A DNA stretch of 38,674 nucleotides, from NCBI GenBank assembly GCA_021778315.1, contig JAJYCQ010000016.1, positions 1-38,674 on the forward strand, in the 5' to 3' direction. This document shows, piece by piece, positions 5,262-38,649 of the stretch. The notes beneath the pieces are model-generated. The model searched no databases, was not told where the DNA came from, and saw only the letters and a list, made by a program, of their open reading frames with translations. Origin of the DNA: Acidobacteriota bacterium (GTDB lineage Bacteria; Acidobacteriota; Terriglobia; Terriglobales; Acidobacteriaceae). The first letter of the stretch is position 1, and the number at the start of each line of letters is the position of its first letter. Made by a program: the position numbers and the translations under genes.

Positions 5262-8200
5262 GCGAGGAGAGGAAGACGCCGGGCTCGCCGGAGGTGGTGA
5301 AGACGCGGGAGGATGCGAAGGGTCCGGGGGCGACAAAGCCGTCGCGGAGTGGATGGCGCGTGGTGGCGTGGATGGTTGCGGCGGCTGTGGTGGGGATGCT
5401 GCTGCTGACGGTGGGGGCTTCGTGGTATGCGACGACGGCGGACTTTCAGCGGCGGGTGGGAGGCGAGGTGGTGAGCGTGCTGGAGAACGCTACGGGTGGA
5501 CGCGTGGAGTTGCGACACCTGACGTTCAACCCGTGGCGCCTGGCGATTGAGGTGGATGGACTGGTGATCCATGGGACCGAGGCGAAGGGAGAGATGCCGT
5601 ATCTGTCGGCGACGAAGATTCTGCTTCGGCTGCATTTGAATATGGTGCTGACGCATATACGGGGGCTGGGGCCGCAGTCGCGGATCAGCCTGCGTTGGCT
5701 GCGGGTGGAGCAGCCGCGGATTCATCTGATTGTGGACAAGGATGGGAAGACGAACCAGCCGACTCCGAAGCATCCGAGCACGAGTAGCACTCCGCTTCAA
5801 GACACGCTGCTGGATCTGCAGGCGCGGAGAGTGGAGATGGTGGATGGGCTGGCGGTGCTGAATGAGAGGGCGATCCCGTTTAATTTGACGGCGAGTGAGC
5901 TGAATGTGCAGGTGGGGTATCTGAAGAAGACGGACCGGTATGGAGCGACGGTGGACCTGGCGAATCTTCGCACGAAGATTAATGCGCAGCCAGAGGTTCA
6001 GTCGAAGCTGCACCTGACGGCGGAGTTGGGACGGGATGTGCTGACGCTGCAGCGGCTGGATTTCTGGAGTGGGTCGCAGGGAGCTACGGGCGGGGCAGTG
6101 ACACATCTGGTGATGACGGCGGAGATGCAACATTTTGCGCGGCCGGAGTGGCAGACAGTGGTGTCGGGTAATGTGGAGCTGAGGCAGCTGGGGTACCTGA
6201 CGGATACGGATGGGCTGGATGCGGGGACGATGGATTTGAGTCTGCGTGGGCACAACTGCAACGCGACGCAGCCCGTGGCTCCGAAGCATCCTCACTTCTG
6301 GCAGAGGCATGGCAATGCGGGCGCGGCTCCGGCGACGAAGGTGGTGCTTCCTGATCCGGAGTGCACGGACGGGTATCTGTTTGTGGGATCAATGAAGGTT
6401 CATAAGGGGGCGTATCACAACCCGTTTGTACGGGTGGAGGGTGTGGACGGCGCAGCGCAGTTGCATGTGACTCCGATGGTGGTGCTGCTGACCGAGATGA
6501 GCGGGTATGTTCCGGGCGGTGGAGGGGCGAAGGGCGAGCTGAGGATCGTGAATGGGCTGCCGGGGTCGGGGAGCGTGGTGAGTGCTGCGGGCGCTGCTAC
6601 AGCGAAGCCGGAGACGGCGCCGAAGACGAAGCCAGCGGGGAAGGCGTTGCCGGCGGAGTTTCCTCATTCGTATCTGACGGTGATGATCGATCATCTACCG
6701 CTGCGATCGATTCTGGATAGTACGACGGCTCCGAGTTTTGGGGACCTGGGGTTCGATACGGCACTGACGGGACCGACGACGGTGGAGTGGAATGGGCCGC
6801 TGGAGACGGTGGCGGATACGGTGCAGGTGGAGTCGTCGCTGACGCTGACTCCGACGGGAGTGCAACGGCGGGGAGCGCTGGGGAATGTTCCGGTGACGGG
6901 GGAGATTACGGCGCACTATGACGGGCGGGCAGAGGTGGTGCATGTGGCGCACATGCTGTTCCAGTCGCCGCAGAGTTCGTTGACGGGGAGTGGATTGCTG
7001 GGCGTGAACATTGGCGATCCTCTGACGGTGTTGCAGATCAATCTGCAGACGCGGGACCTGGGCGAGTTTAATCAGCTGTTGACGACGCTGGACTTTGAGG
7101 CGTTCGGGAAAAAGGGGAGAGCGGCGATTCCGCTGTCGCTGCATGGGTCGATGGACTTTGCGGGAACGGCGAGCGGGCCGATCCTGGACCTGGATGCGAA
7201 GGGGCGGCTGGTGGCGAATGATCTGGGGCTGCAGCTGGGAACGCTGGCGGATGCGCAGATCGATTCGGTGGTGGGAGAGGGAGAGTATTCGCCGAACGAG
7301 GGGCTGCTGATGGCGTCGTCGACGATCAAGCGAGGGACGGCGGTGATGCATGTGACGGGGACGTTCCGGCCCCGGCGCGCGATGGTGCATGGGGTGGTGC
7401 AGTATCCGTGGGATGGACACCTGGCGGTGGACGCGTCGGTGAAGTTGGAGAATGCGCAGGCGGCGGACCTGATGGAGATTGCGGGGCAGCAGCAGAAGAT
7501 TCCGGTGACGGGAACGGTGAACCTGGACGCGCATGCAACTGGGACGGTGGACAACCTGGATGGCACGGGGACGGTGACTCTGACCGATGGGGTGGCGTAT
7601 GGAGAGAAGTATCAGAAGATTGCGGTGGATGTTGCGGCGCAGGGACAGCAGTTGAATGCGACGCGGATGGAGGTGGTGGCGCATGGGCTTTCGGTTGCGG
7701 GCAGCGGGGGATACAACCTCAGCAGCAAGCAGTTGAGTGGAGAGATCAGCGGGAATAATCTGCTGCTATCGAAGTTCGATACGATTCATGCGGCGCGGCC
7801 GGATGTGGATGGATTGCTCTCGTTTACGGCGAAGGCGAATGGGACGCTGGAGAAGCCGGATCTGCATGCGAAGGCTTCGCTGACGAAGATTATGCTGCAG
7901 GGCAAGCCGCTGGGTGAGTTGAATGCGACGGCGAATAGCGCGGGCAGCGAGCTGTCGTACGAGGTGCGCTCGCAGCTGGTGGGAGCGCAGGTGGAGGCGA
8001 GTGGGCGGACGTCGCTGACGGGCGACTTTGAGACGCAGGCGAAGCTGACGGTGGGAGGGCTGGATGTTGCAAACGTGATTGCGCTGATGGCTCCGGATAC
8101 GTTGAAGGGGAGCTCGACGATTGCGGGAACGATCAACGTGACGGGGCCGGCGGCGAAGCCGAAGATGCTATCGGGGACGGCGACGTTTAATGAGTTTGAT

Positions 8201-25720: not shown

Positions 25721-25836
25721 GCGTACTATCTTAGCGTTCGCGCGAGGCAAGGTTCTGTGCGAATTTTGAGAGCGTGCAGCCCTCGCAACGATGTCTCCAG
25801 GCATCCAAACGCGGAGTTGGTTTTGTGGAGGATTCC

Positions 25837-27477
25837 ATGGCAGCTTCGTCCCGTTTCGCAGCACAGCGTCGCGTTCCTTTGGCAGGTAGTGAGAAGAAGC
25901 CGTATGCCGGCGAGGCCGCTCCGGTGATGGCGGCGGCCGCGGCTGTGGCGGCTAAGACCGGATCGAAGATGGGGAGGATGCGGGTATCCGTTATCGTCCC
26001 ACCCAAGGCGCAGTTTCCGATGAAGCGGGGACGGCCGCAGGAGCGACTGAGCCGAGAGGTGTATGCGAGTCGACATGGAGCGAATCCGGCTTCGGTGAAG
26101 CTGGTGCGGGCGTTTGCGAAGGAGTTCGGGCTGACGGTAGAGCCGGTGGTCCACGCAGGGCGATGCACGATTCATTTGAGCGGCAGCGCGGCGGCGATGC
26201 AGAAGGCGTTTGGCGTCGCACTGACAATGCAGACGACGGGCGCGGGCAGCTATCGCGTGCGCGAGGCAGCGATCTGCATACCGGAGGAGTTGGAGGGACA
26301 TATTCTGGCGGTGCTGGGGCTGGATAACCGGCCGCAAGCGAGGCCTCATTTTCGTGTCGCGCAAAGTCGTGTGAGCAACGTTTCGTACACTCCGGTGCAG
26401 GTGGGAGCGCTGTACGGATTTCCGGCGGGGGCGACGGCAGGTGGGCAGACGATCGGGATTATCGAACTGGGCGGAGGGTATCGGACGGCGGACCTGACGG
26501 CGTACTTCAAGACGCTGGGGTTGGCGCCGCCTGCGGTGACGGCGGTCTCGGTGGACGGGGGAAAGAATACTCCAGGGAGCGCGAGCGGAGCGGACGGCGA
26601 GGTGATGCTGGACATCGAGGTGTGCTCGGCAGTGGCTCCGGGGGCGAAGGTGACTGTGTATTTTGCTCCGAATACGGACCAGGGATTTATAGACGCGGTG
26701 TCGATGGCGGTGCATGATTCGGTGAATAAGCCGAGCGTGGTCTCGATCAGTTGGGGAGGGCCGGAGTCGAACTGGACGTCGCAGGCGATGACGGCTCTGG
26801 ATGCGGCGTGCCAGGCGGCGGCGGCGGTGGGTGTGACGATTACGGTGGCGTGCGGAGATAACGGCTCGACCGACGGAGGGACGGGAAACAATGTTGATTT
26901 TCCGGCGTCGTCTCCTCATGTGCTGGCGTGTGGAGGAACGACGCTGACGGGGTCGGGGACGACGATTGTGAGCGAGGTGGTGTGGAACGAGCTGGCACTG
27001 GGCGAAGGAGCGACAGGCGGAGGGGTGAGTGCGGTGTTTCCTCTGCCGACGTGGCAGCAGAGTGCGGGAGTTCCTGCGGCAGCTTCGGGGGGAGGAGGAC
27101 GCGGGGTTCCGGATGTGGCGGGCGATGCGGATCCGTCGACGGGCTATGTGGTGCGGGTGGATGGGCAGACGATGGTGATTGGCGGGACGAGCGCGGTGGC
27201 TCCGCTGTGGGCGGGGCTGATTGCGCTGGCGAATCAGCAGAATGGCGTGGCGGCGGGGTTCATCAATCCGGCGATCTATGCGGCTTCGGCGAAGAAGGCA
27301 TTTCGGGATATTACGCAGGGGAATAATGGGCCGGGCGGGTACTCGGCGGGGCCGGGGTGGGACGCTTGCACGGGGCAGGGGAGCCCGGTGGGGAGCGCGG
27401 TGATTGGGGTGCTTGGAGCGGCGTCGGCTGGCCTGAAGGTAGGGGCGGTGGCGAAGAAGAAGGCTGCGAAGGGGTAG
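25837..27477 (+). CDS. Sedolisin (S53) serine-carboxyl peptidase with pro-kumamolisin domain
   Basis: An acid-active endopeptidase made as a proenzyme. The propeptide domain (about 70-185) includes RPQERLSREVYASRHGANPA and IHLSGSAAAMQKAFGV. The catalytic domain has the Glu-x3-Asp pair E255 and D259 (GEVMLDIE), the oxyanion aspartate D341 (ACGDNGS) and the nucleophile S452 in GGTSAVAPLW. The C-terminal calcium site is DITQGNNGPGGYSAGPGWDACTG. All catalytic residues are intact. There is no ordinary signal peptide, as in some kumamolisins; secretion is likely but not shown. ATG 25837 has GGAGG at good spacing, so upstream codons are excluded. A Lys/Ala-rich tail (AVAKKKAAKG) follows the fold. 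Confidence 0.93.
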   Translation: MAASSRFAAQRRVPLAGSEKKPYAGEAAPVMAAAAAVAAKTGSKMGRMRVSVIVPPKAQFPMKRGRPQERLSREVYASRHGANPASVKLVRAFAKEFGLTVEPVVHAGRCTIHLSGSAAAMQKAFGVALTMQTTGAGSYRVREAAICIPEELEGHILAVLGLDNRPQARPHFRVAQSRVSNVSYTPVQVGALYGFPAGATAGGQTIGIIELGGGYRTADLTAYFKTLGLAPPAVTAVSVDGGKNTPGSASGADGEVMLDIEVCSAVAPGAKVTVYFAPNTDQGFIDAVSMAVHDSVNKPSVVSISWGGPESNWTSQAMTALDAACQAAAAVGVTITVACGDNGSTDGGTGNNVDFPASSPHVLACGGTTLTGSGTTIVSEVVWNELALGEGATGGGVSAVFPLPTWQQSAGVPAAASGGGGRGVPDVAGDADPSTGYVVRVDGQTMVIGGTSAVAPLWAGLIALANQQNGVAAGFINPAIYAASAKKAFRDITQGNNGPGGYSAGPGWDACTGQGSPVGSAVIGVLGAASAGLKVGAVAKKKAAKG

Positions 27478-27596: not shown

Positions 27597-27606
27597 CAAT
27601 CGTTTG
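27597..27606. promoter_or_regulatory. Upstream LacI-type half operator
   Basis: CAATCGTTTG (27597-27606) repeats the core of the two downstream operators and sits directly before the -35 box. Its centre is 55 bases from the first and 76 from the second downstream operator, a distance at which looping is conceivable. Confidence 0.5.
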
Positions 27607-27608
27607 AC

Positions 27609-27638
27609 TTGACAGCCGTACTTTCGCGCAGCTATAAA
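27609..27638 (+). promoter_or_regulatory. Sigma-70-like promoter of the TonB receptor gene
   Basis: TTGACA (27609-27614) and TATAAA (27633-27638) are 18 bases apart. The first is a full consensus match and the second differs at one position. The predicted start of transcription near 27645 falls immediately before the operator pair. Confidence 0.7.
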
Positions 27639-27648
27639 CGCGATCGTT

Positions 27649-27685
27649 GCACAATCGTTTGCGCATTGTGAGCAAACGATTGTGC
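27649..27685. promoter_or_regulatory. Paired LacI-family operators as a perfect inverted repeat
   Basis: GCACAATCGTTTGC (27649-27662) and GCAAACGATTGTGC (27672-27685) are exact reverse complements separated by nine bases. Each has the central CG flanked by A/T typical of LacI-family sites, and the CG centres are 21 bases apart, two helical turns. They lie just downstream of the -10 box, where a bound repressor would block initiation or elongation. A LacI-family gene follows the receptor, so it is the natural candidate to bind here. Confidence 0.7.
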
Positions 27686-27731: not shown

Positions 27732-30700
27732 ATGCTGCACGCACGCCCACTTTTCTGCATCCCGAGGCTGACCATGTTTAGAGGGTTTAGAGGCTCAGCG
27801 CTATCGACGCTGGTTCTCGTGGCACTTTTGTTTACGGCGAACTTTGCTCATGCGCAGTTCCGCACCTCTGTTCAGGGTGTCGTCACCGATCCAACGGGGG
27901 CGGTGATCCCGGGAGCGAGCCTGACGCTCAAGAACAATTCCACGAACGAGACGGTGGTGCGGACCAGCGATGCGAGCGGCGTCTTCAACTTCAATGCTCT
28001 GCCGGCGGACTCGTTTACGCTGACGGTGGATCACGCGGGCTTTCAGGAGAAGGTGCTGGCGAATCTGCAGTTCATTCCGGAGCAGGCGAACTCGCTGAGC
28101 GTGCAACTGGGGCTTGCGGGAACGACGCAGGTGGTGACGGTGGATGCTTCGACGACTCCCGCGGTGGATACGGAGACGGCGAACATCGGCGGCACGATCA
28201 GCAGTAACGATATTCAACATATGCCGTCGTTCAACCGCGACGTGTTCACGTTGACGCAGTTGACTCCGGGCGTGATCAGCGATGGGTCGCAGGGCTCTGG
28301 CGGCGGCGTGTACAACTATCCGGGCAACCAGGGGCCGGGCGGGTCAGGCGCAGCCGGTGCGCCTCCGACAGAGAATGGCCCGCAGGCCAATGCCAATGGG
28401 CAGCAGTATGGGGCTAATGGGATTTCGATTGACGGCATCAGCACGGTGAGCGCGGTGTGGGGTGGAACGACGATCATCACTCCGACGGAAGATTCGATCT
28501 CGAACGTCCGCGTCGTGACGAACGACTATGACGCTGAGAATGGGCGGTTCAGCGGGGCTCAGACGATGGTCACCTCCAAGAGCGGAACGAATCATCTGCA
28601 TGGAAGTGCGTTCTTCGCGCTGCACCGGCCGGGCTTGAACGCGTACCAGCGAGGTACGGGCACGGGCCAGCCGGTGAAGGATACGCAGCGGTTCAACCAG
28701 TATGGCGGAAGCCTTGGCGGACCGATCCTCAAGGACCGGATCTTCGCATTCTTTGCGTATGAGACGACGCCCAACAGCTCAACGAACATTGGGGCGGGAT
28801 GGTATGAGACTCCGGCGTTTGATGCGCTGGCACCGGCGGGCAGCATCGCTTCGAAGTACCTCACGTTTCCTGGAGGTGCGGTCAGCACGACGGGGATTAT
28901 TACCAACAATGAGACCTGCGCCACGATTGGATTGGTGGAGGGCGTGAACTGCCGGACGATCGCTGGACAGGGCCTGAATATCGGGTCGCCACTGACGACT
29001 CCGCTGGGAACGATGGATCCGACGGCGTCGGGTACTTCGGTGAATCCGGGCGTTGGCAGCGGGCTTACGAATGTGGCGGACATTGCGGACTATGCGACGA
29101 CGTCGCCGTTCACTTCGTACTATCGGCAGTACAACGGGCGGCTGGACGCGAATGTTACCTCGAAGGACCATGTGGCGTTTGCGATCTACTGGGTTCCGCA
29201 GGGCAACACGAGCTATAACGGCGGGTCGCGGGCGTACAACCTGTTCCATCACGATCAGATTAATGAAGCAATGTCGGTGATCTACAACCATACGTTCTCG
29301 CCGACGTTCTTGAATGAGGCTCGCGCGAACGCTGCTGGCTGGCGGTGGAATGAGATCACGTCGAATCCACAGTCGCCGGTGGGACTGCCGAGCGACCAAG
29401 TGAATCAGATTGGATCGATCAACCTGAATCAATTCGGCTCGTCGCTGGGCAGCGTTCTGAACCAATGGACGTATGGATACAAGGATGTGGCCACGAAGGT
29501 TGCAGGGGGACACACGATCAAGTTTGGAGGCGAGTTCACGAACCTTCACTACCTGAGCGATCCTATCGGGCGGCCGAACTATGGCTTCTATAACATCTGG
29601 GACTTTCTGAACGATGCTCCTTCGCAGGAGTCCGGCGGCTTCAACACGGTTACTGGATTCCCGGGTGGTACTCGCCAGGATGAACGCGAGAATCTGTTTG
29701 GAGTGTTTGTTCAGGACGACTGGAAGATCAAGCCCAACCTTACGCTGCATGCAGGAGTGCGCTACTCCTACTTCGGGTCGTTGTATGCGCAGCAGAACAA
29801 TTTGCAGGTGGCACGGTTTGGACCGGGATCGCAGGCGTATACGGGTCTTAATATCCGCGTTGGCGGGAACTTGTGGACGCCGCAGAAGGGTAACTTCGGG
29901 CCGCAACTGGGCTTCAACTGGAGCCCGGATATGTTCCACGGAAACCTTACGGTTCGTGGCGGCTATGGTCTCAACTACAACCAGGAAGAGATCGCCATCT
30001 CTGCGAACACGGGGAATAATCCACCGGTTCAGGGCTACTACAACTTTCAGTATGTATCGCCGACCAACCCGGGAACGAACGGTGGCGACATCCTGTACGG
30101 GATCTCGAGCAGCCCGACGTCTCTGAACGGGTTCGCGTCGAATCCGCATACGATCACGAGCTACAACACGGCGAATCTTCCGGTGGCGGGCAATGCCAAT
30201 GTTTCGCTCTTCGGAGATGGAAGGGGCGGGCTGCCGACGACGTACGTGAATCACTACTCGCTGGACACGGAGTATCAGCTGGGCAAGCAGCTGGTGGTGT
30301 CAGTGGGATATCAGGGCAGCACGTCGCGGCATCTGATCAACCATGAAAATCCGAACGCTCCGGGAGTGGTGCAGGGTCTTGCGCTGAATCCTCTGGTGAC
30401 GGGCGGCGACTACTGGACGAACTCGGGCAGCGGCAATAACAATGCTCTGCTGGTTGAGTTGAAGCATCCGTTCGTGCACCACTTCTCGGCAGACGCGCAG
30501 TACATGTGGGCGAAGAGCATGGACACGGATGGGTCGGGACCGTACTCGGAGGATCCATACTTTCCGGAGAATCCGGCGTACTCTTATGGGCGCTCGGACT
30601 ACAACATCGGGCAGTCGCTGAAGGTGTTTGGACTGTGGCAGCCGGTGATCTTCAGCAAGGCAAATAACTGGGCTGAGAAAGTCGTCGGCGGATGGTCGCT

Positions 30701-31268
30701 GAGCGGCATTATGAACCTGCACACGGGCTTCCCGTGGTCGCCTAACTATGGGCTGCCGTCGTCGCTCTATTGCGATACGTGCGGCTACTATAACCTTCGT
30801 CCGACGTATCTTGGAGGAGGGAAGAACAACCATAGCAACGCGGCGTTCGAGGCAGACACGACGCAGCCTAACTCGAACTTCCCGAACCCGGGTGGAGCAC
30901 AGGTCGGCAACAGCTATAGCAATCGCTACTTCAGTGTTCCGGACTATACGGCTGCTATCACGGGGCCTCCGTTCCCCGGGGTGAGGAATGCTCTTCCGGG
31001 ACCTCCGGGAAGCGCGAGGAACTCGTTCACGGGACCGAACTACAGGGATATCGACGCGTCGTTGACCAAGGCGTTCGGTCTTCCCCGGATGCCGGTACTG
31101 GGGAGCAATGCCAACCTGGAGATTCGTGCGGATATCTTCAATGTGTTCAACCTTCTTAACCTCAATCCGCAGAGCATTGCGAATAACGTGAATGCTCCGA
31201 ACTTTGGACAGGATACGAGCGCGATTGGATCTCGCACGATCGACTTCCAGGCGCGATTCTCGTTCTGA
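27732..31268 (+). CDS. Oar-like TonB-dependent receptor with N-terminal carboxypeptidase-regulatory domain
   Basis: The 1178-residue outer-membrane protein has a signal peptide ending FTANFAHAQ and a CarboxypepD_reg/Cna-B-like domain (VQGVVTDPTGAVIPGASLTL to FTLTVDHAGFQEKVLANL). A plug-like region follows (IQHMPSFNRDVFTLTQLTPG, then ENGRFSGAQTMVTSKSGTN). The large beta-barrel ends IDFQARFSF with a terminal Phe. This architecture is greatly expanded in Acidobacteriota, where such receptors are linked to glycan or oligomer uptake. TTTGGAGG precedes ATG 27732. Expression is probably repressed through the LacI-type operators upstream. No TonB box was identified with confidence and the substrate is unknown. 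Codon usage is more mixed than in the genes before 27.5 kb. Confidence 0.92.
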   Translation: MLHARPLFCIPRLTMFRGFRGSALSTLVLVALLFTANFAHAQFRTSVQGVVTDPTGAVIPGASLTLKNNSTNETVVRTSDASGVFNFNALPADSFTLTVDHAGFQEKVLANLQFIPEQANSLSVQLGLAGTTQVVTVDASTTPAVDTETANIGGTISSNDIQHMPSFNRDVFTLTQLTPGVISDGSQGSGGGVYNYPGNQGPGGSGAAGAPPTENGPQANANGQQYGANGISIDGISTVSAVWGGTTIITPTEDSISNVRVVTNDYDAENGRFSGAQTMVTSKSGTNHLHGSAFFALHRPGLNAYQRGTGTGQPVKDTQRFNQYGGSLGGPILKDRIFAFFAYETTPNSSTNIGAGWYETPAFDALAPAGSIASKYLTFPGGAVSTTGIITNNETCATIGLVEGVNCRTIAGQGLNIGSPLTTPLGTMDPTASGTSVNPGVGSGLTNVADIADYATTSPFTSYYRQYNGRLDANVTSKDHVAFAIYWVPQGNTSYNGGSRAYNLFHHDQINEAMSVIYNHTFSPTFLNEARANAAGWRWNEITSNPQSPVGLPSDQVNQIGSINLNQFGSSLGSVLNQWTYGYKDVATKVAGGHTIKFGGEFTNLHYLSDPIGRPNYGFYNIWDFLNDAPSQESGGFNTVTGFPGGTRQDERENLFGVFVQDDWKIKPNLTLHAGVRYSYFGSLYAQQNNLQVARFGPGSQAYTGLNIRVGGNLWTPQKGNFGPQLGFNWSPDMFHGNLTVRGGYGLNYNQEEIAISANTGNNPPVQGYYNFQYVSPTNPGTNGGDILYGISSSPTSLNGFASNPHTITSYNTANLPVAGNANVSLFGDGRGGLPTTYVNHYSLDTEYQLGKQLVVSVGYQGSTSRHLINHENPNAPGVVQGLALNPLVTGGDYWTNSGSGNNNALLVELKHPFVHHFSADAQYMWAKSMDTDGSGPYSEDPYFPENPAYSYGRSDYNIGQSLKVFGLWQPVIFSKANNWAEKVVGGWSLSGIMNLHTGFPWSPNYGLPSSLYCDTCGYYNLRPTYLGGGKNNHSNAAFEADTTQPNSNFPNPGGAQVGNSYSNRYFSVPDYTAAITGPPFPGVRNALPGPPGSARNSFTGPNYRDIDASLTKAFGLPRMPVLGSNANLEIRADIFNVFNLLNLNPQSIANNVNAPNFGQDTSAIGSRTIDFQARFSF

Positions 31269-31289
31269 GCTGACGGTAAGGCGAACAAC

Positions 31290-31316
31290 AGAGGGCGCGC
31301 CGGGTGCGCGCCCTCT
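31290..31316 (+). terminator. Hairpin terminator after the TonB receptor gene
   Basis: AGAGGGCGCGC (31290-31300) and GCGCGCCCTCT (31306-31316) form a perfect 11-base stem with a five-base loop. GGCATTTCC follows, with only a short T-run. It lies 22 bases after the receptor stop and before lacI. Confidence 0.65.
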
Positions 31317-31361
31317 GGCATTTCCGGCTACACTCGCAAGAGCCTGTGCGTTGAGATTCCT

Positions 31362-32423
31362 ATGTCTGAAGAACACAAGATTACCGCGGTCAAGAGTATG
31401 AGTTCGGGGCGGAGCCTGAAGGAGTTGGCGAAGCACCTTGGCCTGTCGCAGACGACGGTGTCGCGCGTGATCAATCACTCGGGAGGGACGCACCGGATCT
31501 CGGCCGCGACCCAGGAGAGGGTACTGGCGGCGGCGGCGGAGATGAACTACAAGGCGAGCCCGCTGGCTCGCGGGCTTCGTAGCCGGCGGTCACAGACGAT
31601 CGGGGTGATGGTGCCGGAGATCAGCGGCGGCTACTCGGCGGCGGTGCTGAGCGGCATTGAGGATGTGCTTCTGCTGAGCGGTTTTTTTTATTTTGTGGTG
31701 AGCCATCATCATCGCGTGGAGCTGCTGAGGGATTATCCGGCGCTGCTGCTTTCGCGCGCGGTGGAGGGGATTATTGCGGTGGACTCGGCGCTGGATGCGG
31801 AGCTGCCGGTGCCGATTGTGGCGGTGTCCGGGCATCTGCGGATCCCGTCGATTCTGAACATCGAGCTCGACCATACGCTGGCGGCACGGTATGCGCTGGA
31901 GCACCTGCACAGGCTGGGTCATCGGCGGATTGCGTTCATCCAGGGGCAGAGCTTCAGCTCGGATACGCAGGTGCGGTGGCATGCGATTGTGAAGGTCGCA
32001 GCTGAGCTTGGGCTGGCGATCGATCCGAGGTTGGTGGTGGCGCTGGAAGGGGAGGATCCGACGCTGGAGCCGGGGCGCGTTGCGACGCACAAGCTGCTTG
32101 CGGCAGGAGGTGCGTTCAGCGCGATCTTTGCGTTCAACGACCTTTCGGCGATGGGAGCGATTGTGGCTCTGCGCGAGGCTGGGCTGGATGTGCCGACGCA
32201 GGTTTCGGTGGTGGGATTCGATGACGTGATGGGAGCGTCGACCAATAATCCACCGTTGACGACGGTTCGCCAGCCTCTGCAGGAGATGGGACGAGCTGCG
32301 GCGACGGCGCTTCTCCAGCGTATCCGCGATCAGAGGAGTAATCAGCCGCCGGTCCAGGCGAAGAATGCGATCCTGGTACTGCCTACTTTTGTTGAACGCA
32401 AATCCACCGCAGCCGCGCCGTAA
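31362..32423 (+). CDS. LacI/GalR-family transcriptional regulator
   Basis: The N-terminal helix-turn-helix is [21 protein letters not shown] (about 18-38), followed by [26 protein letters not shown], which includes the hinge helix. The periplasmic-binding-protein-like effector domain has [55 protein letters not shown] and VSVVGFDDV. These are the standard LacI elements, so it should bind a sugar-like effector and an operator with a central CG. It lies just after the TonB receptor gene, whose promoter carries matching operators, so local control of that receptor is the likely role (inference). Length (353) includes a short N-terminal extension of about 16 residues. The effector is unknown. Confidence 0.93.
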
Positions 32424-32430
32424 CGGAGCC

Positions 32431-32736
32431 ATGCCGATTGCTACCCTCACTCTCGAGCTTGCGATTGAACACGCACAGTCGCTGAAGGACCGGCGGCAGG
32501 TGGTGCGGTCGCTGAAGGACAAGCTGCGGCACGGATTCAATATCTCGATTGCGGAGATGGACGATGCGCTGCTGTGGAACCGGGCGACGCTGGATGTGGT
32601 TGCGATTTCGAGCTCGCGGACGTACCTGGAGGGGCAGCTTCGCGAGGTGGAGGCGGCGGCCCGCCGTCTGGCTGTTGGATTGGGCTGCGAGATTATCGAC
32701 AGCTATGTAGAGAGCGACATATCGCTAAACGACTGA
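32431..32736 (+). CDS. DUF503 family protein (YlxP-like)
   Basis: The 101-residue protein reads MPIATLTLELAIEHAQSLKD, RRQVVRSLKDKLRHGFNISI and AEMDDALLWNRATLDVVAIS. This is the DUF503 pattern of a small ferredoxin-like fold with the SLKDRRxVVRSLKDKLR helix. YlxP-type proteins lie next to rbfA in many genomes and are thought to have a role in ribosome or translation functions; no enzymatic activity is established. ATG 32431 has CGGAG before it and starts only 7 bases after lacI; an upstream in-frame ATG at 32365 lies inside lacI and is rejected. It is the first gene of the rbfA-nrnA group. Confidence 0.88.
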   Translation: MPIATLTLELAIEHAQSLKDRRQVVRSLKDKLRHGFNISIAEMDDALLWNRATLDVVAISSSRTYLEGQLREVEAAARRLAVGLGCEIIDSYVESDISLND

Positions 32737-32773
32737 ACGAATGCTGCAAAAGTGGTACCCTGAAGAGTCAGCT

Positions 32774-33193
32774 ATGCCAGAGCAACGAGCCAGAACCTAT
32801 CACCGCGGTCGAGTCGTCAACACCTTCGCCGAAGAGATTACCGCCATGCTTGAGGGCGAACTCTCCGACCCACGCATTGCTCCGTGTCACGTCACGGAGG
32901 TCGTGCTTGCGCCCGGCGGGAAGAGTTGCAGGGTGTTCATCGCGGTAACGGGAACGCCGAAGGAAGAGGATGAAACGCTGGCTGGCCTGATGGCGGCGCG
33001 AGGCTTTATTCGCACCGAGATACGGTACCGGATGAATGTGCGGCATGTCCCGGAGATCACGTTTGCGATTGATCGGTCGGAGAAGATTAATACGCGGATG
33101 GACGAGCTTCTGGGACGGATGGAGAAGCGGAAGAGCAAACTTGCCGATAAGGTAGCCAAGGAGAGCAATGCCCGGTCTGAGCCACCACGCTAG
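32774..33193 (+). CDS. rbfA: 30S ribosome-binding factor RbfA
   Basis: RbfA binds the 30S subunit for 16S rRNA 5'-end maturation and cold adaptation. The KH-like domain is visible: GRVVNTFAEEITAMLEGELS, DPRIAPCHVTEVVLAPGGKS, CRVFIAVTGTPKEEDETL and GFIRTEIRYRMNVRHVPEITF, then IDRSEKINTRMDELL. The conserved DPRI and the Arg-rich helix fit the family. Length (139) is slightly longer than the minimal 120 because of a Lys/Glu tail. ATG 32774 starts the conserved part; ATG 32741 would add 11 residues. Placement between DUF503 and nrnA is a common bacterial order. Confidence 0.93.
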   Translation: MPEQRARTYHRGRVVNTFAEEITAMLEGELSDPRIAPCHVTEVVLAPGGKSCRVFIAVTGTPKEEDETLAGLMAARGFIRTEIRYRMNVRHVPEITFAIDRSEKINTRMDELLGRMEKRKSKLADKVAKESNARSEPPR

Positions 33194-33216
33194 GACTGGC
33201 TCGAAGTCCCTTACCC

Positions 33217-34236
33217 ATGAATAATGACGCCTCCATCTTCGCTCTACTTGGGCTGCTTCGCGAGTGCAAGCGGTTTGTCATTACGTCGCATGTTCGTCCG
33301 GACGGCGATGCGATTGGGTCGTCGCTGGGGCTGATGCATGTGCTGGAGGGGATGGGCAAAGAGGCGACGGTGGTGTTCACGGATCCGATCCCTCCCAACT
33401 TTCATTTTTTGCCCGGCGTGGAACGGATCTCGAGCCGGCTTCCAGCGACGGATGCGGTGATTTTTCTTGAGTGTGACTCGATTGAGCGCAGCAGTATTGA
33501 TGCTCTTGAGTTTGAAGCAGCGAAGCCGCTCCTGACGATCAATATCGACCATCATCAGAGTGGCCGGGAGTTTGCGGAGTTCAACTGGATTGATCCGGAA
33601 GCTGCGGCGGTGGGTGCACTGGTCTACGATATTGCGGTGGCTGCCGGCGTTGCGGTGACACGGGAGATGGCGGACTGTTTGTACACGGCGATTCTGACGG
33701 ATACTGGCTCGTTTAACTACCCGAGCACGAGTGCCGAGACCTTCGCCATGGCGGAGCATCTGGTTCGGTGTGGAACGGACCCGAATCAGATTGCACGCGC
33801 GATTTATTTCTGCAATCCGCTGAGTAAAGTTCGGCTGCTGGGGATTGCCATCGCGAATCTTCAAATTGACGATGCGGTGTGCTGGAGCCATGTGACGCTG
33901 GACGAGATCGAGCGCGTCGGCGCGAGCGTTGAGGACTGCGAGGGAGTTGCGAATCATCTGATTGGTATTGCTGGAATCGAGGGGGCGGTATTCCTTCGGG
34001 AGCTTCCGGGAAGGGCACAATTTCGTCTCAGCATGCGGAGTCGAGGGACGCTGGACGTGTCGAAGATAGCCGAGCACTTTGGCGGTGGCGGCCACCATAG
34101 CGCAAGCGGATGCACGATGGAGGGCACGCTAGCGGAGGTGACCGAACGCATCGTCGACCAGCTCCGTGAGGCGTGTGCCCAGTTGCAATCGGACCGCGTC
34201 CTTGCTTCAACCCAGCCCGCGACTCTGTTAGCCTAG
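33217..34236 (+). CDS. nrnA: DHH/DHHA1 phosphoesterase, NrnA-like oligoribonuclease/pAp phosphatase
   Basis: This enzyme degrades nanoRNA and 3'-phosphoadenosine 5'-phosphate. The DHH domain has ITSHVRPDGDAIGSSLGL (H25, D29, D31), a C87-D88 pair, the DHH motif INIDHHQSG (111-113) and D162 in the ILTDTGSF motif. The DHHA1 domain ends with GGGGHHSASG (289-298), the substrate-binding glycine motif. All metal ligands are intact, so activity is likely. Length (339) is normal. The gene follows rbfA, a conserved arrangement that usually continues to truB; here it continues instead to a membrane glycosyltransferase. Confidence 0.92.
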   Translation: MNNDASIFALLGLLRECKRFVITSHVRPDGDAIGSSLGLMHVLEGMGKEATVVFTDPIPPNFHFLPGVERISSRLPATDAVIFLECDSIERSSIDALEFEAAKPLLTINIDHHQSGREFAEFNWIDPEAAAVGALVYDIAVAAGVAVTREMADCLYTAILTDTGSFNYPSTSAETFAMAEHLVRCGTDPNQIARAIYFCNPLSKVRLLGIAIANLQIDDAVCWSHVTLDEIERVGASVEDCEGVANHLIGIAGIEGAVFLRELPGRAQFRLSMRSRGTLDVSKIAEHFGGGGHHSASGCTMEGTLAEVTERIVDQLREACAQLQSDRVLASTQPATLLA

Positions 34237-37260: not shown

Positions 37261-38649
37261 TTAGTTGCCTGTCGGACAGCTACATCCTGAAATGGTGTTG
37301 CTGTCCAGGGTGACCGCACCATTCCTCGCCAGCGCCCTCCCTTGCAAGTTTGCGCCGGTGGTAAGGGTGACGGATGTCAGCGCGAGGATGTTTCCCTCAA
37401 ATGTAGAGTTGGTTCCCAGAGTCGCAGAGCTTCCAACCTGCCAAAAGACGTTACAGGCCGAGGCACCGTTTGTGAGGACAACATGGCTGCCGCTCCCTGT
37501 TGTGAGAGTGGACCCGATCTGGAAGATAAACACGGCGCTTGTATTCCCTTGAGCGTCCAGCGTGAGATCCCCGGTGAGGGCAAGCGATGACGTCGATTTA
37601 TAGACTCCAGCGGTAAGGGTCTTTCCGGTTAAATCTCCGGCCTCCGTCGTACCTCCCGATCGCCCGGCAGCGTCGTTATACCCGGCCGTCAAAGTAGCCT
37701 GGGCCTGGCTTGCGGCAGCGTCTGCACGATGGATCGTTCCAGTCGTCAGCCCCGGAGGAAATCCCGTGACGGCTGAGCCCGGGCTGACTCCAACATCTCC
37801 TGTAACCACCGTTGCTCCGGTATTCGTAACGGTGGAACCTGCCAGTACCGAGAAAGCTCCAATGTAAGGGCAGAGAGCTATTGGCTGCGTTCCACCTGAT
37901 GTAACCGCACCGGTAGTGAATGATTGACTAAGAGTGGGAGCCACCGGCACACCGCCCTGGTCCTGAGCTCCGGCAGTCACGGAAACTGTGTAGGTGGTGT
38001 TGGGTGCCAGACTAGCCGTTGGGGTGATCGTGGCAGTCTGAGTCAGCACGTTGTAGGTCACGGTTGACGCGACACCCTTAATGAACACGGTTGTCGGGTT
38101 GATGGTGCTTGAGGACATCTGTTCATTGAAGGTGATAGAGATGGTCTGGTTCAGGGGCACGTTCGTCGCGCCGGGAACAATATTGACCGCTACGACATAG
38201 GGTGCAGAGGCGTCGGTGGTCGCGCGTGTAGTGAAGGCGAAGTCGAATGGCGCAGCAAGCGGAGTTCCGCTTGCATCTCTTGCCATCGTGTTGATCGTCG
38301 CATTGTAAGTAACATTTGCTGCGAAGTCGGGAGAAGGTTTGAAGGAAGCAATCTTATTCGCCGCGTCGTAAGCTACCGTGCCTGTGGCACCGGCAACCGT
38401 GAAGCTGCTCGTATTGATACTGGCCGGGTCCATTGCCGTGCTGAAGACTACGGCAACCTGTCGGTTCGTTCCAACGCCATTGGTCTCTGGAACCACCGTC
38501 ACTACTGTGGGAGCGACATTGGTCATCAATGGAGTAGAGGTGGAACTGCATCTAGAGCATTTCTCTATCAGGTGTACACTATAATTGCTCTGACGGACCG
38601 CGACATCGATAGGGATGGCGAAGGCATATTCGGATGATTTGAGATGCAA
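37261..38649 (-). CDS. DUF3494 ice-binding-like protein with two Ig-like domains, N-terminus uncertain
   Basis: The C-terminal domain (about 250-455) has FSVLAGSTVTNTGATVVTGD, VGVSPGSAVTGFPPG, a TLTAGYNDAAGR segment, TGKTLTAGVYKSTSSLALTG and LTLDAQGNTSAVFIFQIGS, the DUF3494 fold of bacterial ice-binding proteins. Two SbsA/Big_5-like Ig domains precede it (APTVVTVVPETNGVGTN and YVVAVNIVPGATNVPLNQT). A C-terminal SGCSCPTGN tail follows the fold. The first 40 residues (TTG start at 38649) show no signal peptide. The frame stays open to the right edge, so the true N-terminus may lie outside the window or this end may be altered. It likely acts outside the cell or on the surface in freezing tolerance (family knowledge). 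Confidence 0.85.
   Translation of the reverse strand: MHLKSSEYAFAIPIDVAVRQSNYSVHLIEKCSRCSSTSTPLMTNVAPTVVTVVPETNGVGTNRQVAVVFSTAMDPASINTSSFTVAGATGTVAYDAANKIASFKPSPDFAANVTYNATINTMARDASGTPLAAPFDFAFTTRATTDASAPYVVAVNIVPGATNVPLNQTISITFNEQMSSSTINPTTVFIKGVASTVTYNVLTQTATITPTASLAPNTTYTVSVTAGAQDQGGVPVAPTLSQSFTTGAVTSGGTQPIALCPYIGAFSVLAGSTVTNTGATVVTGDVGVSPGSAVTGFPPGLTTGTIHRADAAASQAQATLTAGYNDAAGRSGGTTEAGDLTGKTLTAGVYKSTSSLALTGDLTLDAQGNTSAVFIFQIGSTLTTGSGSHVVLTNGASACNVFWQVGSSATLGTNSTFEGNILALTSVTLTTGANLQGRALARNGAVTLDSNTISGCSCPTGN

Follow-up and report, generated by a model that had tools for sequence, protein, structure and literature searches.

A putative tandem LacI-family operator at a TonB-dependent-type receptor promoter in Acidobacteriota and its predicted regulon

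Distances between neighboring sites of LacI-family regulators peak at 13, 22 and 32 bp, as reported in the main text of PMC4052901. According to the same text, the RafR and the Burkholderiales ScrR regulons contain double sites only, spaced by 21-22 bp and read as cooperative binding, and GntR of the gamma-Proteobacteria has overlapping sites approximately 13 bp apart. LacI-type control of TonB-dependent receptor genes has also been described, in the passages available from both papers for sucrose: SuxR and suxA belong to a CUT locus of Xanthomonas campestris (PMC1790865), and SucR and sucA are the corresponding pair of Caulobacter (PMC11897816). The main text of PMC4052901 holds no mention of the term "Acidobacteria." A literature search returned no paper joining Acidobacteria, TonB-dependent, LacI and operator, and among the best-ranked papers, judged by titles and the beginnings of abstracts and thus weak evidence of absence, none dealt with a LacI operator for an acidobacterial TonB-type receptor. 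Acidobacteria are abundant soil bacteria with many TonB-type receptors. A testable regulon, comprising repressor, operator motif, receptor and a GH39/PF10091 operon, would predict the receptor cargo.

We analyzed a stretch of 38,674 bases from an Acidobacteriota bacterium (the window), in which a TonB-dependent-type receptor gene is followed by a lacI-type gene. A first-pass annotation of positions 27597-27685 had described a promoter surrounded by LacI-type operators. Indeed, the -35 box TTGACA (27609-27614) and the -10 box TATAAA (27633-27638), both on the plus strand, can be read from the sequence with a spacer of 18 bp. This promoter was absent from the output of a sigma-70 scan of the window, because the scan requires T at the final position of the -10 box. 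The three cores of the annotation are likewise present. The exact core CAATCGTTTG lies on the plus strand 5' of the -35 box (core A, 27597-27606, CG center at 27601.5) and again at 27652-27661, where it is part of candidate operator B (GCACAATCGTTTGC, 27649-27662, plus strand, center at 27656.5) just 3' of the -10 box. Its complement is found at 27673-27682, within candidate operator C (GCAAACGATTGTGC, 27672-27685, plus strand, center at 27677.5). Including their flanks, B and C form the perfect 14-bp inverted repeat that had been claimed, with a 9-bp spacer and CG centers 21 bp apart. Core A is centered 55 bp before B, and a weak site that overlaps B (GCGATCGTTGC, 27640-27650, plus strand, center at 27645.5) is centered 11 bp before it. 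B and C agree with the definition of LacI-family operators given in the main text of PMC4052901 (even palindrome, central CG, approximately 16-22 nt), with seven of nine symmetric pairs around the central CG in B and five of nine in C, which is an imperfect palindrome.

A, B and C are the sole exact copies of the core in the 38,674 bases. In first-order Markov simulations that preserved the composition, a sequence contained 0.07 exact cores on average, and two exact cores within 90 bp occurred in none of 300 simulated sequences. An additional exact core would turn up within 100 bp by chance with a probability of about 2e-4. When one mismatch is allowed, the window count of three becomes unremarkable and is reached by 33 of 100 shuffles. 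The significance of the cores lies in their exactness and clustering, not in the bare one-mismatch count.

The receptor gene (27732-31268, plus strand) encodes a TonB-dependent-type outer-membrane protein of 1178 aa with CarboxypepD_reg and OMP_b-brl_4 domains. Its Pfam matches comprise PF25183 (393.5 bits, E 3e-117), PF13620 and, as expected for the beta-barrel of a TonB-dependent receptor, PF00593 (29 bits, cutoff 27); a plug domain was not among the matches at E 1e-3. The lacI gene starts 93 bases 3' of the receptor stop codon. Within this gap folding predicts a 12-bp G+C-rich hairpin without a T run (31289-31317, plus strand), and the terminator scan listed none there. Since the hairpin lacks a T run, lacI may be partly co-transcribed with the receptor and thus autoregulated. 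Its product (31362-32423, plus strand), a LacI-family repressor of 353 aa that is presumed to bind B and C, combines a helix-turn-helix domain (PF00356, 45.5 bits, cutoff 27) with a periplasmic-binding-type core (Peripla_BP_3, PF13377, 103.9 bits, cutoff 26.5). In this family the hinge Leu intercalates at the central CG of the operator, and the hinge of the window LacI and its near relatives, ARGLRSRRS, contains this residue. The protein scores far below every listed NCBIfam equivalog cutoff, the best match being RbsR with 182 vs 382 bits.

The wider neighborhood is mixed. Just upstream of the promoter lies a gene for a Pro-kumamolisin/subtilase-type protease (25774-27477). Shortly after lacI comes a small ORF, with rbfA and a DHH-family gene next (32365-34236), a housekeeping neighborhood that is unusual for a sugar repressor. 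An ice-binding-like protein with a bacterial Ig-like domain is encoded at 37261-38649. No tRNA was found in the window.

For comparison we used 80 LacI loci, obtained when an alignment of the window LacI was scanned against bacterial genomes, and a family search of 398 genomes in which up to five LacI candidates were scored per genome. The genomes compared are related to one another, and several of them are incompletely assembled. In 37 of the 398 genomes LacI was matched at E<=1e-120, and 11 of these matches had at least 78% identity. Five orthologous loci carry the receptor gene directly before lacI (82-91% identity): L001, L002 and, from genomes G322, G217 and G292, respectively, L111, L112 and L113. 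The closest relatives include protein P0121, with 99% receptor identity, on a 3.6-kb contig. All five promoters consist of TTGACA, an 18-bp spacer and TACAAA, TACAAC or TAAAAA as the -10 box. The B core is found at the same place in each of them, as CAATCGTTTG in four and as CAATCGCTTG in L002. The 21-bp spacing of B and C, whose conservation in relatives the annotation had named as a check, is retained exactly between two CG-centered cores in the window and in every one of the five orthologous promoters, a constancy that fits tandem operators spaced by 21-22 bp. The orientation of the C core varies: it reads CAAACGATTG in the window, L112 and L113 and CAATCGTTTG in L001, L002 and L111. Such a flip is neutral for a dimeric DNA-reading protein and destructive for an RNA hairpin. 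Very probably, B and C constitute a tandem operator of the LacI family immediately 3' of the -10 box. The comparative evidence thus gives good support to the proposal of LacI-type operators with an adjacent cognate LacI and a pair phased by two helical turns.

Where the LacI ortholog has 82-91% identity (five genomes), the receptor promoter contains the 14-mer GCACAATCGTTTGC, exact except for one mismatch in G002. The exact 14-mer is also found at a second place, identical in all five genomes, directly after the -10 box of a glycoside hydrolase operon; for these genomes exact matches are complete and near-matches are among the matches listed. The operon has the order GH39-GH39-PF10091 at L139, L140 and L142 and GH39-PF10091 at L138 and L141, as assigned by Pfam for the proteins of L140, L141 and L142 and by tblastn with the L142 proteins for L138 and L139. 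Six more genomes encode a LacI ortholog of 78-79% identity that has no match to the window receptor beside it. The prediction that these genomes carry the operator at the GH39 promoter was correct for five of the six (four exact, one with a mismatch). The exception was G326 (2.7 Mb). Of the 11 genomes whose LacI ortholog reaches at least 78% identity, it alone yielded no operator; the other ten have it at the GH39 promoter. The pattern WTGCACAATCGTTTG is present in 12 of the 398 family genomes, that is in 10/11 with such an ortholog and in 2/387 others, a co-occurrence that includes related, non-independent genomes from which the pattern was partly derived. One of the two others is G231, where the match is part of a 21-bp pair before another TonB-type gene. 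The site in the second, G371, has no recognized receptor or GH39 neighbor, and the same holds for one more one-mismatch site each in G229 (L151) and G248 (L150). A second intact core was detected at one of the ten GH39 promoters (G217, L140; 22 bp), and the promoter of L139 has a copy at 22 bp in which CA replaces the central CG. A divergent PNP_UDP_1 gene adjoins nine of these ten GH39 operator loci (L138-L142 and L145-L149), the contig ending too early at L147. Since the site recurs at the GH39 promoter in ten of 11 genomes, we suggest that a single glycan is probably both taken up and digested under the control of this repressor. From these relatives we infer the GH39 operon of the window genome itself.

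We then surveyed 58 TonB-type gene starts, located in 54 of the 80 loci and each at most 10 kb from LacI, for CG-centered sites matching at least five of the six outer positions of CAA..TTG within approximately 330 bp upstream. At least one site was present upstream of 36 starts. Eighteen pairs lay within 60 bp; 12 of them, from 12 loci, were spaced by 20-23 bp and the other six by 12, 13, 33, 38, 55 and 58 bp. Pairs at 20-23 bp hence occurred at 12 of 58 starts vs approximately 0.05 expected from random 330-bp windows of the same loci, receptor upstream regions excluded, 10.8% of which contained a site, with 0.00082 such pairs per window. With a single best receptor taken from each locus, and with the window and L111-L114 included, 59 loci fell into three groups: a pair was present at 16, a lone strict site at 16 and neither at 27. 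Single sites at 16 of the 32 site-bearing loci, together with nine of ten GH39 promoters without a second intact core, indicate that a second site is not obligatory. Mapping the pair onto a quick LacI tree takes seven changes, of which well-supported branches force at least five; the pair was hence repeatedly gained or lost. Mean site symmetry was 6.5/9 at twin vs 7.5/9 at single loci (Mann-Whitney 0.002, exploratory, with related rows), and the symmetry of the best site did not differ between the two groups (0.10, rows again related).

Five of 300 family genomes contain pairs spaced by 11-41 bp, four at 21-22 bp and G230 at 29 bp. In G230 (L143/L155, contig C215, 17224-17262) the cores are exact, and no match to the receptor, LacI or GH39 references was seen in the 8.5 kb analyzed. 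CG-centered 21-bp pairs were also seen before other TonB-type genes in G248 (L154, contig C11) and G231 (L166, contig C263), the second core of the G231 pair carrying one mismatch. Neither genome yielded a LacI at E<=1e-120 among the up to five candidates scored, which points to a motif common to paralogous repressors. The site in L158 adjoins the 3' end of an ORF. As a tentative and rather doubtful extension, the twin operator could be a reusable design on receptors of Acidobacteriota: two less symmetric sites, bound cooperatively by a dimeric Arg-type LacI, would give a sharp receptor switch vs a graded single-site enzyme operon, and the trade of one symmetric for two asymmetric sites would have been made repeatedly in the clade.

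The motif is linked to a residue of the repressor. Position 35, which we take to be base-contacting in the lac repressor, lies in the recognition helix (...TTVSR...). Of 29 loci encoding a LacI with Arg35, 27 contain a strict CAANCGNTTG site, vs none of 25 with Leu, Ile or Met at this position (Fisher 4e-13 for 54 loci, a value inflated by relatedness); the Arg35 loci without a strict site are L013 and L035. Two separate regions of the LacI tree combine the Arg type with the motif. This points to a simple code that pairs CAANCGNTTG with Arg at a single position of the helix and could be used for operator assignment of other acidobacterial LacI proteins. The loci of Leu-type LacI proteins lack CAANCGNTTG; in L033 another palindrome-like stretch, TTACTAAAACGCTTTTGTAG, follows the promoter and is perhaps the operator of the Leu-type group.

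According to the annotation, three operators and a weaker fourth site bracket the promoter and possibly loop the DNA. A tetrameric LacI would then bridge core A with B and C. Core A is exact and, at about 2e-4, hard to attribute to chance, and its distance from B equals 5.0 turns at 11.0 bp per turn; at 10.5 bp per turn, however, it is 0.24 turn out of phase. Furthermore, a full core 5' of the -35 box and within 190 bp of B was absent from all five orthologous promoters, so neither the triple array nor the distal auxiliary operator of lac-type looping is conserved. The nearest counterpart of A is a 5/6 match, TAAGCGCTTG, which lies 50 rather than 55 bp before B in L112, and A lacks the GCA and CGC flanks seen at B and C. 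The C-terminal helix of the lac repressor mediates tetramerization. As judged indirectly from alignments, the window protein shows no sign of it: residues 18-353 align end to end with residues 2-334 of 340 of PurR, to the last residue, and the match to E. coli LacI ends at residue 312, short of the C-terminus of that protein. The weak site does have its CG roughly one turn from B as annotated, at 11 bp, but matches only three of the six outer positions (CAA..CG..TTG) in the window. A CG 11-12 bp before the center of B recurs in four of five orthologs and is missing in L001; the outer matches are 6/6 in L002, 4/6 in L111, 3/6 in L112 and 2/6 in L113. L002 is the sole ortholog with a full core at this position (CAAACGGTTG, 12 bp before B). 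Three full cores follow each other there (6224-6266) with spacings of 12 and 21 bp, and an overlapping third operator may therefore exist in that lineage. We consider bridging across the promoter unlikely and rejected looping via A on the grounds of its unconserved core, its uncertain phase and the lack of any sign of the helix. Being improbable by chance, core A may be a young auxiliary site; it is at most a recent, lineage-specific one, outside the conserved design.

The B/C repeat might instead act as RNA, in which case a 14-bp 5' hairpin would stabilize the receptor mRNA or attenuate transcription. The 5' UTRs of the window and of L112 fold strongly (-30.1 kcal/mol, z -3.8, and -34.5 kcal/mol, z -4.1, respectively). 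However, in L001 and L002, where the cores are in direct arrangement, the folds resemble shuffles (z -0.42 and +1.19), and L111 has the direct arrangement as well (folding covered the window, L112, L001 and L002). No Rfam family reached its gathering score in the window, the scan found no terminator, and the core has no partner arm at nine of ten GH39 promoters. With strong folds in two of four promoters and shuffle-like ones in the other two, an RNA role is mostly refuted by the orientation flip and very improbable in our view. Less credible still is that the sites resemble operators by chance or are a decayed repeat with no role. Three one-mismatch copies per window are not unusual, but the exact clustering was never seen in the simulations, B and C are kept in all five orthologs, and the site takes the same position relative to the -10 box in two unrelated operons; chance is effectively excluded for B and C and may account for A. 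The sites could also be bound by another LacI paralog, or be common to several, rather than belong mainly to the neighboring gene. Between 2 and 18 LacI-like matches per genome were counted in five genomes, very similar cores go with LacI proteins that are approximately 50% identical, and G231 and G248 have the pair with no close ortholog found. Yet the extended core tracks this LacI ortholog group over the 398 genomes and is present where LacI is unlinked from such a receptor, and we regard a paralog as an improbable main binder.

We propose B and C as a tandem operator for the LacI protein encoded at 31362-32423, which would repress the receptor until a sugar inducer binds and have the unlinked GH39 operon as a second target; this is the explanation that we hold with high confidence. 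From the computed sites, spacing, conservation, regulon targets predicted in relatives and motif-residue link, we infer LacI binding, repression, cooperativity, an inducer and enzyme secretion as follows. Without inducer, two repressor dimers would sit adjacent to each other on one DNA face, their CG centers two helical turns apart. They would cover approximately +5 to +41 of the receptor transcript, given a start near 27645 as estimated from the -10 box, and halt RNA polymerase at initiation or immediately afterwards. Cooperative binding to B and C on the same face is plausible by analogy to the double sites in the main text of PMC4052901. Since the protein ends like PurR and shows no lac-type tail, cooperativity would likely arise from contact between adjacent dimers or from DNA distortion, not from looping. 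Upon sugar binding both dimers would leave and the receptor would be made. The inducer is probably a product of secreted GH39 and PF10091 enzymes of the same regulon, families that are too broad to name the sugar. Their operon, GH39(-GH39)-PF10091, would be the second target elsewhere in the genome, mostly with one site right after its -10 box.

Compared with the systems described so far, the locus closely resembles RafR of Enterobacteriales and ScrR of Burkholderiales. As in the main-text account of these regulons (PMC4052901), the candidate sites are CG-centered even palindromes, the pair is spaced by 21-22 bp, and the sites lie at -140 to -30 relative to the start codon, the range usual for them. 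The organisms are different, however, and the predicted targets are an outer-membrane receptor and a GH39 operon. Moreover, RafR and ScrR have double sites only in that account, whereas here the pair is kept on the receptor promoter and nine of ten GH39 promoters have one intact site. The full core 12 bp before B in L002 and the CG 11-12 bp before B in four of five orthologs are reminiscent of the overlapping GntR sites, although the overlapping site of the window matches at only three of six outer positions. With SuxR/suxA and SucR/sucA the locus shares a LacI-type repressor over a TonB-dependent carbohydrate receptor. Those are sucrose systems of Proteobacteria, in the available passages of which no tandem operator is described (PMC1790865; PMC11897816), and the enzymes here are unlinked GH39/PF10091 genes. 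In its helix-turn-helix domain, its hinge with the conserved Leu, its periplasmic-binding-like core and its end-to-end alignment with PurR, the protein is like the dimeric PurR/RbsR/CcpA class, but differs from it in falling far below all listed NCBIfam equivalog cutoffs. Tandem LacI operators and LacI-controlled TonB receptors are both already known, and the present case therefore belongs to known kinds. It is a well-supported new example, not a new mechanism, and adds an acidobacterial repressor, its candidate operator and a predicted regulon to them.
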